Assembly (NCBI RefSeq): GCF_034377145.1
Contig: NZ_CP139707.1
Span: 1,125,001 to 1,189,000, forward strand
Source: Sulfitobacter sp. OXR-159
GTDB taxonomy: Bacteria; Pseudomonadota; Alphaproteobacteria; Rhodobacterales; Rhodobacteraceae
Length of the DNA stretch: 64,000 bases
Reading direction: 5' to 3'
Positions within the stretch are counted from its first letter, which is position 1. Each line of letters begins with the position of its first letter. A program made the translations under genes and the position numbers. Positions 8,476-43,820 of this stretch are shown in pieces. The notes under the pieces are model-generated. The model did not search any database. It saw only the letters and a list, made by a program, of their open reading frames with translations, and was not told the origin of the DNA.

Positions 8476-8530
8476 AGCGCCGTTGTACCGCTATGGCGAG
8501 GCTGTCAAAAGCCCGTCTAAACAAGGCCTT

Positions 8531-8572
8531 AAAAACAAAAACGACGACACCTTGGGAGGAAGGTGCCGCCGT
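8531..8572 (-). terminator. Rho-independent terminator ending the DUF1127/hairpin RNA unit
   Basis: On the minus strand a 13-bp stem (8560-8572 with 8541-8553, including G-U pairs) encloses the loop CCTCCC and is followed by a T-rich run of ten T and one G. It is the fourth and last hairpin of the array downstream of the DUF1127 gene, so it serves both as a CCUCC-loop RNA and as a terminator. Confidence 0.85.
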
Positions 8573-8699
8573 TTCTATGTCGGCCCGAAGCGTCGAGGGA
8601 GGGTCGGCTTCGGGTCTCCTTGCGGGGTCCGCCTCATTCAGGGAGGAGGAAGGTGACGCGCACCCCGACTTTCAGACGGCAGAACAGGGAGGGGTTCTG
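8541..8699 (-). ncRNA. Array 1: four CCUCC-loop hairpin RNAs (CcsR/cuckoo family) downstream of DUF1127 gene
   Basis: Read on the minus strand, four stem-loops follow the DUF1127 stop codon: 8680-8699 (6-bp stem, loop CCCTCCCT), 8624-8666 (longer, looser stem GGGGT/ACCCC, loop containing CCTCCTCCC), 8584-8614 (8-bp stem CCCGAAGC/GCTTCGGG, CCCTCCC in the loop) and 8541-8572 (13-bp stem, terminator). This copies the known Rhodobacter sphaeroides arrangement, where the DUF1127 gene RSP_6037 (ccaF1) is co-transcribed with the stress-induced sRNAs CcsR1-4, members of the cuckoo RNA family, whose loops resemble an anti-Shine-Dalgarno sequence. By analogy the transcript is probably processed into separate sRNAs that affect C1/glutathione metabolism and oxidative stress. 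The homology is inferred from layout and motif. Confidence 0.82.
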
Positions 8700-8720
8700 A
8701 CGTCCGATCTCTATCTCTGC

Positions 8721-8933
8721 TTAGCCGCGGGAAGATTCCCATGCGACGCGGCGCAGTTCGGAACGGCTCAGGCCAAGGTCGGCCAGTTCCCGGTTGCTCA
8801 ACGCGCTCAGACCGTCGAAAGTTTCACGGTACAGACGGTGCTGTTTGTAGCGGGTTGCCAGTGCTTCGAATGCGCCGCCGATACGGGCGAAGACGGAAGT
8901 TGTGTTTGCGGTTGTTGTGTTCATGTAAGCCAT
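8721..8933 (-). CDS. DUF1127 small RNA-associated protein (CcaF1-like)
   Basis: A 70-residue protein ending in the DUF1127 pattern TYRETFDGLSALSNRELADLGLSRSEL-like helix pair (here YRETFDGLSALSNRELADLG, then RSELRRVAWESSRG). DUF1127 proteins are tiny, arginine-rich and cytoplasmic; one from R. sphaeroides, CcaF1, binds RNA and takes part in maturation of the CcsR sRNAs. The gene is directly followed by four hairpins of that RNA family (8541-8699), supporting the same role here. The ATG at 8933 has AGAGG about 10 bases upstream; an internal ATG three codons later lacks good spacing. Confidence 0.88.
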   Translation of the reverse strand: MAYMNTTTANTTSVFARIGGAFEALATRYKQHRLYRETFDGLSALSNRELADLGLSRSELRRVAWESSRG

Positions 8934-8976
8934 TTCGGCGCCTCTTTTTTCATCGGTTAATCATCTCGTTGCGTGC

Positions 8977-9004
8977 TATTTACGCTCTTTCTGCATTTGC
9001 ACAA
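8977..9004 (-). promoter_or_regulatory. Candidate promoter for DUF1127/array 1
   Basis: On the minus strand TTGTGC (8999-9004) and TAAATA (8977-8982) are 16 bases apart and lie about 45 bases upstream of the DUF1127 start. In R. sphaeroides the equivalent unit is driven by RpoHI/RpoHII; I cannot decide from sequence whether this is a housekeeping or a heat-shock-type sigma promoter. Confidence 0.3.
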
Positions 9005-9144
9005 CGGGCATAAAGTCAATGCCGCTATGCAGAAATCGCATAGGTTTGGATTGGCGCAACTTATTGATTAGAAACGGTTTTGATCCTGCGGCGAAACGGC
9101 GCAACGTCATAAAACTGTCATATGGGGGTGGAGTGGGAAAAGGG

Positions 9145-9311
9145 GGCGACGACATCTGGGAGGAGGTAGATGTCGCCGCCAATTACAGACACATCCGGGA
9201 GGAGGATGGAAGCGTCTGGTCTTTCCAAACTCAGCTGCATCCGGGAGGAGGAGGGATGCATCCAAGTCTTGGTCAAATCAGACACATTCGGGAGGAGGAT
9301 GAATGTGTCTG
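9145..9311 (-). ncRNA. Array 2: four further CCUCCUCCC-loop hairpin RNAs (cuckoo family), no DUF1127 gene attached
   Basis: On the minus strand four regular hairpins follow one another: 9279-9311 (perfect 11-bp stem CAGACACATTC/GAATGTGTCTG), 9236-9260 (7-bp stem TGCATCC/GGATGCA), 9186-9218 (11 positions, one mismatch and one G-U, CAGACGCTTCC/GGATGTGTCTG) and 9145-9180 (13-bp stem with one G-U). Every loop holds CCTCCTCCC, usually preceded by AT. The first and third share the outer arm CAGAC/GTCTG and the flanking GAAAGACC, suggesting tandem duplication. The last hairpin is followed by CCCTTTTCCC, a weak terminator. The 224 bases between the array and the mrp start must hold its promoter, but I see no convincing one. 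No protein gene is linked to it on this strand. Confidence 0.8.
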
Positions 9312-9535
9312 GTCTTTCCGAAAGCGGGGCGCTTGGCCCTGCCTATGAACCTAAGTTAGCGCTAATTGCTGCGAGTGCACAATATTTCTTTTTGCAATGC
9401 TGCTATGCGGCGAAAACATGGTACCCCTGCGTAATCCTTGGGCATTCCGCCTCATCCCTATGCAAAAATGGCCGTCCCCTTGCGCTTGGCGCAGAACCTG
9501 CCATTTCAGAAGCAGTAATAGAGGAGAATTTGCGC
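9312..9535. other. Intergenic region between hairpin array 2 and mrp
   Basis: This stretch separates the divergent array 2 (minus) and mrp (plus). The plus reading frame stays open through it and through array 2, but the peptide would consist of hairpin-derived repeats, so it is not counted as coding. An AT-rich patch at about 9381-9398 may belong to one of the two promoters. GAGGAG at 9521-9526 is the ribosome binding site of mrp. Confidence 0.5.
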
Positions 9536-10600
9536 ATGTCTGTGACCAAAGCAGAAGTCGAAGCGGCGCTGGCGCGGGTGCAACTGCCCGACGGGAAAAG
9601 CCTGCTGTCCCATGATCTGGTCCGCGCGCTGGTCGTCGAAGGCGATAAAGTGCGATTCGTCATCGAAGCGCCCAACGCCGATGTCGCGCGCCAGATGGCC
9701 CCCCTGCGTGACGCCGCAGAGCAGGTGGTGCGCGATTTGCCCGGGGTAGGTGATGTATCGGTTGCCCTGACCGCCCATGGCCCCGCCCCGAAAGCGCCCA
9801 GTCTCAAGATTGGTGGGCACCCCAAACCGCAAGAGGGGCCGATGAAGCCCAGTGGCGTGAAGCGCATCCTTGCCATCGGCTCGGGCAAGGGTGGGGTCGG
9901 GAAATCAACCGTCAGTTCCAACCTCGCGGTGGCGCTGGCGCGGGCGGGGCGCAAGGTGGGTCTGCTTGACGCAGATATATACGGTCCCAGCCAGCCGCGC
10001 ATGATGGGGGTGAATAAACGCCCTGCCAGCCCCGACGGCAAAACGATCATTCCGCTGCAGGCCCATGGCGTGACCATGATGTCGATTGGTTTTATGTTGG
10101 AAGAGGGCAAGGCCGTGGTCTGGCGCGGGCCGATGCTGATGGGCGCGCTGCAGCAGATGCTGGGGCAAGTGGAGTGGGGCGAGCTGGACGTGCTGCTTGT
10201 CGATCTGCCGCCCGGTACGGGTGACGTGCAGTTGACGCTCTGCACCAAGTCCGAGCTGTCGGGCGCGATCGTGGTCAGCACACCGCAGGATGTGGCCCTG
10301 ATCGACGCGCGCAAGGCGCTGGACATGTTCGCGACGCTGAAGACCCCCGTGCTGGGCCTGATCGAGAATATGTCGACATTCGTCTGCCCCGATTGCGGTT
10401 CTCAGCATGAGATCTTTGGCCATGGCGGTGTGGCGGCAGAGGCCGACAAGATGGGGGTGCCGCTGCTGGGCAGCCTGCCGATTGATCTGGACACCCGTCT
10501 GGCGGGGGACCACGGCACGCCGATCGCCGCGGGCGAAGGGCCGATGGCCGACGCCTATGCGCGTCTTGCGCGGGGTCTGATCGACGGCGGAATGGCCTGA
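9536..10600 (+). CDS. apbC: Mrp/NBP35 family iron-sulfur cluster carrier ATPase
   Basis: The 354-residue P-loop protein is thought to hold and transfer [4Fe-4S] clusters to apo-enzymes in the cytoplasm. It has an N-terminal MIP18/DUF59-like domain (residues 1-85, LPDGKSLLSHDLVRALVV), a deviant Walker A GSGKGGVGKS (115-124), a Walker B-like LVDLPPGTGD (221-230), and the cluster-binding pair CPDC with C284 and C287. Length fits the family. The ATG at 9536 is preceded by GAGGAG; longer upstream readings run through the hairpin array and are rejected. Confidence 0.95.
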   Translation: MSVTKAEVEAALARVQLPDGKSLLSHDLVRALVVEGDKVRFVIEAPNADVARQMAPLRDAAEQVVRDLPGVGDVSVALTAHGPAPKAPSLKIGGHPKPQEGPMKPSGVKRILAIGSGKGGVGKSTVSSNLAVALARAGRKVGLLDADIYGPSQPRMMGVNKRPASPDGKTIIPLQAHGVTMMSIGFMLEEGKAVVWRGPMLMGALQQMLGQVEWGELDVLLVDLPPGTGDVQLTLCTKSELSGAIVVSTPQDVALIDARKALDMFATLKTPVLGLIENMSTFVCPDCGSQHEIFGHGGVAAEADKMGVPLLGSLPIDLDTRLAGDHGTPIAAGEGPMADAYARLARGLIDGGMA

Positions 10601-10619: not shown

Positions 10620-11387
10620 CTACCCCAGCTCGCGCCCTTCGACCAGATGACCATAGAGTGTCGTCAGCATCGAGACGAAAACCAGCCCCTCTATAAGGTA
10701 GATCGCTGAATCCAGCATCAGGCGCAGGCCGGGTTCGGCGGGCGGCAGTATGCTTGCGATCACGCCCAACAACGTATTCACCACTGCCAGTAATACGGCC
10801 AGTGCCCAGAGCGTGCTTGCCAGCGGTTCCGTCGCGCGCCAGCTTTCGCGCACTGACATAACGTGCCCCAAGGCGGCGGCGGGCAATACCAGGCTGAGCC
10901 GCAGCGCCAGCCATAGGAAGGCCACGCCCGCCACCAGGCCGATCAAGAGCAGCGCCGCCGGGCTCGACCCGGTCAGCCCGCCCAAAAGCAGCATGGCGAG
11001 GCCTATGGGAAGGGCCGCAAGAAACTGGACGAAGCCCAGAACGATGGCCCGCCAGACATAGGCCCCGAACAGACGCGCGCCGGGGCGCAGGTCGGTCCCG
11101 CCATGGCCAAGCAATACATAGCGGTGCCAGAGAATGGCCATCAGCGCATAGCCAAGTATGCCGGCCAGCCCGCAGGCAATCAGGATCAAGAGTTGATCCG
11201 TGGGGGGCGGCGCGGCGTTGTCGATCACCTGATCCATCGCTCCAAGCGCATCTCCGGCCAGCACACCCGCCACGGCGGCAGCACCCATCACCCAAAGCAC
11301 CGCGGGCAGGATCACCCGCAGCGTGGTGGAGGGCGCGTGAAACAGCATGTTCAGCGCGTGGGTGAATAGAGCCGTAGCTTGGATCAT
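10620..11387 (-). CDS. Multi-pass integral membrane protein of unknown function
   Basis: A 255-residue very hydrophobic protein with about six membrane segments (for example LLILIACGLAGILGYALMAI, IVLGFVQFLAALPIGLAMLL and ALLLIGLVAGVAFLWLALRL). It has no catalytic motif I recognise; the spacing of helices and polar loops is like small uncharacterised Rhodobacterales membrane proteins. The start at 11387 (MIQATALF) is chosen because AGGGAG lies seven bases ahead of it; that sequence would be inside the gene if the ATG at 11402 were used. The gene points away from mraZ, and its upstream region carries an array of TGGGA repeats (11471-11543). Confidence 0.72.
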   Translation of the reverse strand: MIQATALFTHALNMLFHAPSTTLRVILPAVLWVMGAAAVAGVLAGDALGAMDQVIDNAAPPPTDQLLILIACGLAGILGYALMAILWHRYVLLGHGGTDLRPGARLFGAYVWRAIVLGFVQFLAALPIGLAMLLLGGLTGSSPAALLLIGLVAGVAFLWLALRLSLVLPAAALGHVMSVRESWRATEPLASTLWALAVLLAVVNTLLGVIASILPPAEPGLRLMLDSAIYLIEGLVFVSMLTTLYGHLVEGRELG

Positions 11388-42029: not shown

Positions 42030-43820
42030 TCATAGGGGCGCCGTTGCCGCATCCAACCACAGTTTTGTAACAGGTGATACCCGCGGCCCGATCTTTTCCG
42101 CAACGTCGCGGTGATAAACGTTCAGCCATTCGCGCGCCTCGGGGCTAAGCGCCTCCACATCGATCAATCGCCGGTCAATCGGCACGAGCGTCAGGGTGCG
42201 CCAATCGAGCATCTTGCGATGCGCGTCACCGCCGGGCAAGGCGGGGGCCTCCTGCACCACCAGAAGGTTCTCAATGCGAATGCCGAACGCCCCCTCGCGG
42301 TAATAGCCCGGCTCGTTGCTCAGGATCATACCCGGTTGCAACGGCACATGGCTCATCCGGCTCAGCCGCTGCGGCCCCTCATGCACCGACAGGTAAGCGC
42401 CAACGCCATGCCCCAGGCCATGATCGAAATCCTGCCCCGCCATCCAAAGCGGCAGACGCCCGAGCATTTCAATATCCCGCCCAGCCAGCCCGCGCGGCCA
42501 CCGTAGACGGCTCATGGCGATCATGCCCGACAACACCCGCGTAAAGGCGCTGCGGGCATCCTGATCGGTGCAGCCGATGGCAATGGTGCGGGTGATATCT
42601 GTGGTCCCGTCAAGGTACTGACCGCCACTGTCGAGCACCAAAAGATGTCCGTCCTGCAGCAGGCTGTCGGTTTCCTCATTCACCCGGTAATGGATGATCG
42701 CCCCATGCGGCCCGCTGCCCGAGATCGTCTCAAAGCTGATGTCACGTAAGGACGGATCCCGGCGCCGCAGACCTTCCAACTGCCGCACCACCTGTGTTTC
42801 TGTGATCGTGCCGGAAGGCTGCGCATCCAGCCAGGCGAGCAGCTCCGCCATTGCCGCGCCATCGCGCAGGTGCGCCTCCGCCGCGCCGGCAATCTCGGCG
42901 TCATTCTTGCAGGCTTTGGGCAGGGCACAGGGGTCATCCCCCGCCTGCGCGCGGTCCCCCAGCAGGTCCGCGAACAACACCGGCGCCGACTGCCGATCAA
43001 GCCGCACCGGCCCTTCCAACGCGCGCAGGGTATCAGGCAGGCCAGCGGGGTCATGCTGCACCACCTCCGGCCCCAAATGGTCCGCCACATCCGCCAGTTT
43101 CTCGGCCGCCATAAACAGATCAACCCGCGCGTCGTCATGCAGCACGGCAAAGCCATGGGCCACGGGATTGCGCGGAATGTCCTGCCCGCGAATGTTTAAC
43201 AACCAGTTGTGGCTGTCGGGAAGGGTGATCACCGCCGCCTTCTGCCCCGCCGCGCGCAGGTCTGCCGCCAAACGTTGCCGCTTGGCGGCATGGCTTTCCC
43301 CGGCAAAGCGCTCAGGGTGGGCCGCCACTTTGCCCATCGGTGCCGCAGGTTGGTTCTCCCAAACCCGGTCCACCATATTCTCGCTGCGTCGCAGCTCAAT
43401 GCGAGAGCCCGCCAGCGCTTCCACCAAAAGGTCCATCTGCCCCGGCGTATGCAATATCGGGTCAAAGCCAACCACACCGCCCTCAGGCAATTGGTCCTTC
43501 AGCCAATCGGCCAAAGACACCTCGGGCCAAGGCACAGGCGTAAAGACCTCCGCCACCTGCGCCTTGACCTGCGTGCGGTAGCGCCCGTCGATAAAGACCC
43601 CCGCCACATCCCGCAGTGCCGCACAAAAGCCAGCCGATCCGGTAAACCCCGTCAGCCACGCCAAACGATCATCGCGTAGCGCGACATATTCCCCCTGATG
43701 CGCATCGGCGCGCGGCACCAAAAATCCATCCAACTCTGCCCGCGCCAACTCCCCGCGCAGCGCTTCCAGCCGTGGCGGCCCCTGCTCAGGACGCGCGGTG
43801 ACCTCGAAACTCTGGAACAC
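42030..43820 (-). CDS. pepP: Xaa-Pro aminopeptidase (peptidase M24, aminopeptidase P family)
   Basis: The 596-residue metallo-aminopeptidase cleaves the N-terminal residue before proline. Two creatinase-like N-terminal domains (LDGFLVPRADAHQGEY and DSHNWLLNIRGQDIPRNPVAHGF) precede the pita-bread domain with metal ligands in VLDSGGQYLDGTTDITRT, GHGVGAYLSVHEGP and the later E-rich strands (NEPGYYREGAFGIRIENL). GTG at 43820 is chosen as the start since AAGGAGGGG lies directly upstream; using the ATG at 43835 would translate the ribosome binding site. Confidence 0.93.
   Translation of the reverse strand: MFQSFEVTARPEQGPPRLEALRGELARAELDGFLVPRADAHQGEYVALRDDRLAWLTGFTGSAGFCAALRDVAGVFIDGRYRTQVKAQVAEVFTPVPWPEVSLADWLKDQLPEGGVVGFDPILHTPGQMDLLVEALAGSRIELRRSENMVDRVWENQPAAPMGKVAAHPERFAGESHAAKRQRLAADLRAAGQKAAVITLPDSHNWLLNIRGQDIPRNPVAHGFAVLHDDARVDLFMAAEKLADVADHLGPEVVQHDPAGLPDTLRALEGPVRLDRQSAPVLFADLLGDRAQAGDDPCALPKACKNDAEIAGAAEAHLRDGAAMAELLAWLDAQPSGTITETQVVRQLEGLRRRDPSLRDISFETISGSGPHGAIIHYRVNEETDSLLQDGHLLVLDSGGQYLDGTTDITRTIAIGCTDQDARSAFTRVLSGMIAMSRLRWPRGLAGRDIEMLGRLPLWMAGQDFDHGLGHGVGAYLSVHEGPQRLSRMSHVPLQPGMILSNEPGYYREGAFGIRIENLLVVQEAPALPGGDAHRKMLDWRTLTLVPIDRRLIDVEALSPEAREWLNVYHRDVAEKIGPRVSPVTKLWLDAATAPL

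Follow-up and report, generated by a model that had tools for sequence, protein, structure and literature searches.

Two arrays of putative anti-Shine-Dalgarno hairpin RNAs share a LysR-type promoter element beside mrp in Sulfitobacter sp. OXR-159

The window analysed here is a stretch of 64,000 nucleotides of the Sulfitobacter sp. OXR-159 genome in which two arrays of minus-strand hairpins are flanked by genes that, on our own reading of the open reading frames, we take to be uvrD and mrp. In the order of the minus strand, the interval comprises promoter A (9424-9353), array 2 (9145-9315), promoter B (9046-8977), a DUF1127 gene (8933-8721) and array 1 (8535-8707). Promoter A serves array 2, whose four hairpins (9275-9315, 9227-9269, 9186-9218 and 9145-9180) carry CCTCCTCCC in every loop, and no DUF1127 gene lies between this promoter and the hairpins. 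The last of the four is a probable intrinsic terminator, followed in the window by only CCCTTTTCCC (T4). Promoter B serves a unit in which the DUF1127 gene, encoding a CcaF1-like protein of 70 aa (Pfam PF06568 at 43.8 bits, cut-off 23.3), directly precedes the hairpins of array 1. Three of these, with short CCUCCC loops, are found at 8672-8707, 8584-8614 and 8535-8578, the last being the presumed terminator, while the fold reveals an imperfect hairpin at ~8622-8669, in which the only full 9-mer CCTCCTCCC of array 1 is located. A strict consensus scan of 8480-9540 identified neither a sigma-70 promoter nor a minus-strand terminator. The divergent neighbour mrp (9536-10600, plus strand) was read from its open reading frame and provides the synteny anchor. 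Its open frame (476 codons; 9170-10600, plus strand) extends back through part of array 2, and automated annotation could set the mrp start within the array 2 hairpins. A second mrp-like gene, 58% identical, is encoded on another contig of this genome (G000:C2:231003-232043), with a similar second copy in many genomes of the genus.

Eight minus-strand hairpins in two groups had been described in the initial annotation, and eight were recovered, six by a hairpin scan and two by folding, with one poor member among them. The scan called all six on the minus strand with scores of 20.5-37, its only other matches in the 64 kb being at 11312-11340 (minus strand, score 15) and 42866-42890 (plus strand, score 17.5). 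Array 2 folds on the minus strand into four separate hairpins at -76.9 kcal/mol (z -7.19, 200 shuffles) and on the plus strand adopts different pairings (z -3.42), while the minus strand of array 1 has a fold z of -4.96, with the hairpin at 8584-8614 sound in the fold. The same annotation had noted cleaner stems and more uniform loops in array 2, as well as a repeated flank, and both observations hold, the flank GGAAAGACCAGAC preceding 9279-9311 and 9186-9218. Among 129 distinct hairpins, G-U exceeds A-C (124 versus 41 on the minus strand) at positions unused for their selection, which fits transcription of the minus strand. Together with the promoter element described below and the T tail, this wobble bias indicates that the arrays belong to the minus strand.

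Conservation within the genus was assessed in the mrp-proximal interval of 57 loci from the 58 genomes searched, G004 being dropped for want of a full mrp. Array 2 is represented at all 57 loci by one hairpin or more, and array 1 hairpins are seen at 54, the exceptions being L062 and L064, which run off their contigs, and L089, which carries promoter B and in which no array 1 hairpin was called in the stretch covered. The notion that array 2 is merely extra is at odds with its presence at 57 of 57 loci, its position at the mrp-proximal promoter and its possession of most of the canonical loops. Among 55 genus copies, from which L064 (contig end) and L083 are left out, 46 have a T-rich tail (at least five T in 8 nt) behind the last array 2 hairpin. 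A lack of compensatory changes in the stems had been named beforehand as grounds for abandoning the structures, and such changes were found in the last array 2 stem, where two-sided changes occur at five of 12 pairs, a number matched in one of 500 shuffles. Across 31 distinct sequences 99.4% of cells in this stem pair, and 18 cells carry two-sided changes where shuffles average 4.9. The covariation score of 0.252 was reached by none of 500 shuffles, a test which kinship among the sequences can inflate and for which three mis-registered rows of the alignment were re-cut by hand. Further pair types were not in excess of the shuffles (12 versus 12.3). In the last array 2 hairpin, the one to which this result applies, the stem is conserved as structure rather than as sequence.

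By their sequence and predicted fold, both arrays are cuckoo/CcsR/ar14-type anti-Shine-Dalgarno hairpin RNAs that lie below the curated Rfam cut-offs. At gathering scores no Rfam model matched anywhere in the window; the ar14 model (RF02344), with its gathering score of 58.8, reached 42.8 (array 2) and 31.6 bits, and the CcsR1 model (RF02791) reached 36.1, 19.8, 17.1 and 13.7 bits against 65.3, with best scores of 36.1 for array 2 and 17.1 for array 1. Both models nevertheless match array 2 on the minus strand (ar14 and CcsR1, E 2.6e-6 and 6.6e-7). The earlier comparison of array 1 with the CcaF1-CcsR unit of Rhodobacter sphaeroides stands as far as the layout is concerned, a DUF1127 gene being followed by four anti-Shine-Dalgarno hairpins as in CcsR1-4, and fails at the Rfam CcsR1 cut-off (17.1 versus 65.3); unlike those of CcsR1-4, the loops of array 1 are mostly short CCUCCC. 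Consecutive hairpins with the same loop and variable stems are also features of the cuckoo RNA family and the CIN1 locus (SmelA075, SmelA099, SmelC201), reportedly the subject of Reinkensmeier and Giegerich 2015. CIN1 is cited as the DUF1127-linked cuckoo form in excerpts of PMC10253847. The cuckoo family is described with two to four hairpins in excerpts of PMC3927594, whereas at least five hairpins were called in 59 of 103 arrays here, the largest having ~16 (16-17 by count, L215). By the loop-and-hairpin description in those excerpts array 2 fits, as the CCUCCUCCC loop occurs in all four hairpins with two or more adjacent, and array 1, with this loop in one of four hairpins, fits poorly.

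A further relative is NfeR1 of Sinorhizobium meliloti, an ar14 RNA with three CCUCCUCCC loops which silences ntrB, according to excerpts of PMC10746234. Its promoter contains an LsrB site, TGCA-N6-GCAT, shown by gel shift and mutation, with binding abolished by trimming or point changes and expression requiring LsrB (PMC10746234, same excerpts). Array 2 shares with NfeR1, as described there, the CCUCCUCCC hairpin loops, the variable stems and the lack of a DUF1127 gene, and its upstream box resembles TGCA-N6-GCAT with a drifted half-site. NfeR1 has three hairpins, a sigma-70 core and an NtrC site, whereas in array 2 there are four hairpins and the presumed -10 is RpoH-like. The arrays also recall AbcR1 (ar15) of the Rhizobiales, an LsrB/VtlR-activated small RNA with anti-Shine-Dalgarno motifs, as these arrays would be if the control proposed below applies. 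AbcR1 is a different RNA, and its promoter box, given as GCAT-N3-TG-N3-T in excerpts of PMC8844928 and PMC7486931, was rejected as a match to the present element, which is one letter off, the TG being replaced by AG or GG.

The two arrays have separate promoters, both of which contain the element TGC-N7-GCATRGCRGCATTG-N12/13-TTG. In promoter A the left part (9395-9424) comprises a T-N11-A box, TGT-N7-GCAT, at 9418-9405, followed by AGCAGCATTG; the second box TTGTGCANNYGCAGCA (9367-9382) overlaps the presumed -35, and a -10, CTAACTT, is presumed at 9353-9359 from spacing and the family consensus. The left part of promoter B (9017-9046) comprises an LsrB-type box, TGC-N7-GCAT, at 9040-9027, followed by AGCGGCATTG, and a decayed second box, TTGTGCAAATGCAGAA, can be read from the sequence at 8989-9004. 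The core GCATAGCNGCATTG has exactly two zero-mismatch matches in the genome of 4.4 Mb, and these lie ahead of the two units. With a matrix built from 77 named-genome sites, promoter B scores 44.5 and promoter A 29.1, while the next best place in the window scores -10.4 and the maximum in 60 shuffled 3-kb stretches is -12.1. Throughout the genus, all 56 array 2 promoters and all 55 array 1 promoters score above each of 168 controls, these being single-base shuffles (L064, at a contig end, is left out of the promoter and loop counts). This promoter element, common to both units, supports the earlier proposal of array 2 as a second regulatory output. The left part forms a T-N11-A box, with TGC-N7-GCAT in 72 and the strict TGCA-N6-GCAT in 57 of the 77 family sites; a reading as the NtrC site TGC-N11-GCA was rejected on spacing, which is N7 here. 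The family consensus following the second box, CYANNTT, resembles an RpoH -10, which would be in line with the RpoHI/RpoHII control of R. sphaeroides CcsR1-4 described in excerpts of PMC10253847 and PMC8307010.

Of 198 family genomes, 109 contain the pattern GCATNGCNGCATTG-N6-16-TTGTG, usually once, and none contains it read backwards. A named-genome scan gave at least 117 stretches, 80 of which were used as loci (judged by title, 76 from Rhodobacterales, two with broader names only and two, L164 and L223, from elsewhere), and together with 30 loci from the family-genome scan these supplied 111 sites. Three sites with no array near (L139, and L164 and L223 from other orders) were dropped before counting, leaving 108 sites in 103 distinct strings, with a few species occurring in both sets. 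Among the named-genome matches listed and the 30 family-genome loci, an array lies downstream of the element at 103 of the 108 sites, the other five having only 59-470 bases of sequence downstream. A DUF1127-like frame, as found by a search from the two DUF1127 proteins of this genome iterated once (100, then 102 matches), is present between element and array in 98 of the 103. It is present in all 98 arrays whose first hairpin is at least 250 bases from the element and in none of the five nearer arrays (L128, L135, L167, L194 and L203). For the converse, loci were selected by two CCTCCTCCC in a row, a consecutive pair of which occurs in 42 of 61 genomes. From the sample of 30 loci, one per genome, L344, L351 and L370 were dropped where the place covered holds no array. 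The element scores above the control maximum in 25 of the remaining 27 arrays, chosen by loop sequence alone, although the matrix training and converse test sets come from one family and are hence not independent. Weak scores among the 25 are those of L350 (1.5) and L362 (-2.9), and the two arrays without the element are L349 (-20.5), which retains a recognisable decayed copy, and L365 (-14.7).

Further arrays were observed in this genome and its relatives. A third locus in the same genome (L006:1432-2220; G000:C1:914.9-915.9 kb) consists of a DUF1127 gene, a small ORF with no Pfam match and CCTCCTCCC-loop hairpins with a fold z of -5.48. A GCATTGCAGCATT element occurs just before the start codon at this locus; its low score and its location within ~50 nt of the start codon led to its rejection as a member of the same promoter class. 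Of the 58 genus genomes, 14 have the DUF1127 gene of this locus, and in seven besides this one its identity is 91-100%. In G096, CCTCCTCCC pairs are found on four contigs (C16, C17, C62 and C63), the copy on C16 (L350) having a weak element only ~60 bases before the hairpins. The arrays of some genera are made up of tandem copies of a two-hairpin unit of ~107-115 bp, as at G108:C4:691717-692221 and G082:C27:4977-5454, and as several of them are letter-for-letter identical in the matched stretch, recent expansion of these arrays is likely.

An orthologue of LsrB is encoded in this genome (L276:1495-2406; G000:C1:1949958-1950866) among 27 LysR-type proteins. No LysR gene adjoins trxB here, its neighbours presumably being an Lrp-type gene and a sulfate adenylyltransferase, and orthology was therefore assigned from 30 trxB loci in other alphaproteobacterial families. 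The L276:1495-2406 protein matches 13 of the LysR-type frames beside trxB in those loci at 43-51% and a further one at 36%, while the other LysR-type proteins of this genome reach at most 37% among the best 120 matches. The trxB-vtlR arrangement is called well conserved in Alphaproteobacteria in excerpts of PMC7486931, where Agrobacterium VtlR is given as the LsrB orthologue that also activates atu1667, encoding a small hypothetical protein. The best PDB match of the L276:1495-2406 protein is 9HH1 (E 9.6e-71, the next being 1e-30), with closely similar helix-turn-helix regions. The atu1667 product is, we assume, a DUF1127 protein. The 9HH1 structure is that of LsrB, which was stated in 2025 to be unique to Rhizobiales (PMC11975290). 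The occurrence of the orthologue, at E 1e-80, in all but seven of the family genomes (191 of 198) speaks against such a restriction. Between genera this regulator is 73-83% identical among the matches listed, which seems high for a LysR-type protein. Its near-universal presence in the family does not discriminate, and the regulator is too widespread to count as proof. The motif is present without a match to the regulator in G085 and G252, whose assemblies are 86% and 64% complete; both are lacking in G146, G170 and G216 (96-100% complete), which are too few to count; and G079 and G090 have neither a match to the regulator nor an exact motif, a near-copy of the motif in G079 being accompanied by an array (L352).

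The two units of the genus differ in what they carry. The strict second box TTGTGCNNNYGCAGCA is present in 52 of 56 array 2 promoters versus 12 of 55 array 1 promoters, while TGC-N7-GCAT is present in all 55 array 1 promoters versus 16 of 56 array 2 promoters, the LsrB half-site having drifted from TGC to TGT (TGT-N7-GCAT) in 37 of the latter. A looser TGY-N7-GCA is found in 55 of 55 and 53 of 56 promoters of arrays 1 and 2, respectively. The strict TGCA-N6-GCAT occurs in 41 of 55 promoters of array 1 and in only six of 56 of array 2, which makes control by LsrB less certain for the latter. Among loops of called hairpins, CCTCCTCCC is found in 102 of 123 for array 2 versus 20 of 129 for array 1; irrespective of called hairpins, it stands at 118 of 146 versus 39 of 212 CCTCCC places in the respective regions, and at least once in 54 of 56 versus 34 of 55 loci. 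Arrays elsewhere carry CCTCCTCCC in 491 of 590 loops, a sample which includes genus-like loci such as L194 and L203. Outside the genus, the usual locus consists of one promoter, a DUF1127 gene and an array, often divergent from mrp, and the motif lies just upstream of mrp and points away from it in 23 of the 30 other motif-bearing genera sampled. Features that are combined at a single locus elsewhere in the order are divided between the two Sulfitobacter units, each of which has kept its own subset, and duplication followed by complementary loss would be the simplest account of the two.

Control by another regulator is the most probable of three alternatives. The arrays, or at least array 2, would then be CcsR-type stress RNAs under RpoH promoters, with the element read by OxyR, another LysR-type protein or a regulator outside these. 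The RpoHI/RpoHII dependence of CcsR1-4 agrees with this, as do the 27 LysR-type candidates, the generic nature of T-N11-A for the LysR type and the TGT half-site of array 2. Excerpts of PMC10253847 describe the R. sphaeroides promoter solely as RpoHI/RpoHII, and excerpts of the literature on CcsR1-4/CcaF1 make no mention of an LsrB box. Excerpts of the PMC4344238 main text contain no LysR or DUF1127 term, and no link between LsrB and DUF1127/CcsR loci in Rhodobacterales was found in the excerpts of the literature covered. Against another regulator, NfeR1, of the same RNA class, is activated by LsrB through the same form of box in Sinorhizobium, and the LsrB orthologue here is strongly conserved. 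We consider this explanation rather unlikely, at about one chance in a small handful.

It is quite improbable that array 2 is instead the leader of a longer transcript from promoter A into the DUF1127 gene, with its hairpins acting in cis on stability or attenuation. The shared strand, the distance of ~100 bp from array 2 to promoter B and the T tail of only four in the window would suit a leader; the T-rich tail right after the last hairpin in most genus copies and promoter B, above all controls in 55 of 55, argue against one. CsrB-type sponges carry GGA loops, and the least probable explanation, that the loops of either strand act as decoys, binding a protein or ribosomes, could draw on the many alike loops, up to 16 per array, and on their plus-strand reading, GGGAGGAGG, which resembles those of such sponges, but is opposed by the minus-strand wobble bias and promoter element and by the rhizobial anti-Shine-Dalgarno loops shown to silence mRNAs (excerpts of PMC10746234). 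The CsrB-like form, raised in the initial annotation as a sponge for proteins, was rejected, as CsrA was not found in this genome or in 23 genus genomes by a search whose control was positive in E. coli, B. subtilis and T. maritima.

The explanation we favour, and hold to be more probable than not, is that an LsrB-driven operon of a DUF1127 gene and a cuckoo array was duplicated and split, giving two precursors of anti-Shine-Dalgarno small RNAs under LsrB-type promoters. Both arrays would be minus-strand precursors, and in each promoter the LsrB/VtlR orthologue would bind a LysR-type box that lies upstream of a core resembling that of RpoH promoters, with oxidative or other stress as the probable trigger of induction. 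By analogy with NfeR1 and CcsR1-4 (excerpts of PMC10746234, PMC10253847 and PMC8307010), RNase E would cut the precursor into hairpins, the freed CCUCCUCCC loops of which may base-pair with ribosome sites that contain GGAGG, so that translation of many mRNAs would be reduced. After the split, array 2 beside mrp would have kept the second promoter box and most of the 9-mer loops without DUF1127, and the array 1 unit would have kept DUF1127 and the LsrB box while losing the second box and most 9-mers. For a broader proposal we see the chances as evenly balanced: that LsrB control of anti-Shine-Dalgarno RNAs predates the Rhizobiales-Rhodobacterales split, that the two-box promoter of Rhodobacterales serves cuckoo arrays almost exclusively, with arrays growing to ~16 hairpins, and that in this genus the operon was duplicated and divided.

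The findings connect the work on CcsR in Rhodobacter with that on NfeR1 in Sinorhizobium and call into question the published confinement of LsrB to Rhizobiales. With the element as a signature, such RNAs can be located in Rhodobacterales independently of a covariance model, which performs poorly on them, and the proposal names a regulator open to immediate testing. As a natural experiment, the split in this genus sets the DUF1127 protein, the loops and the two promoter boxes apart from one another.
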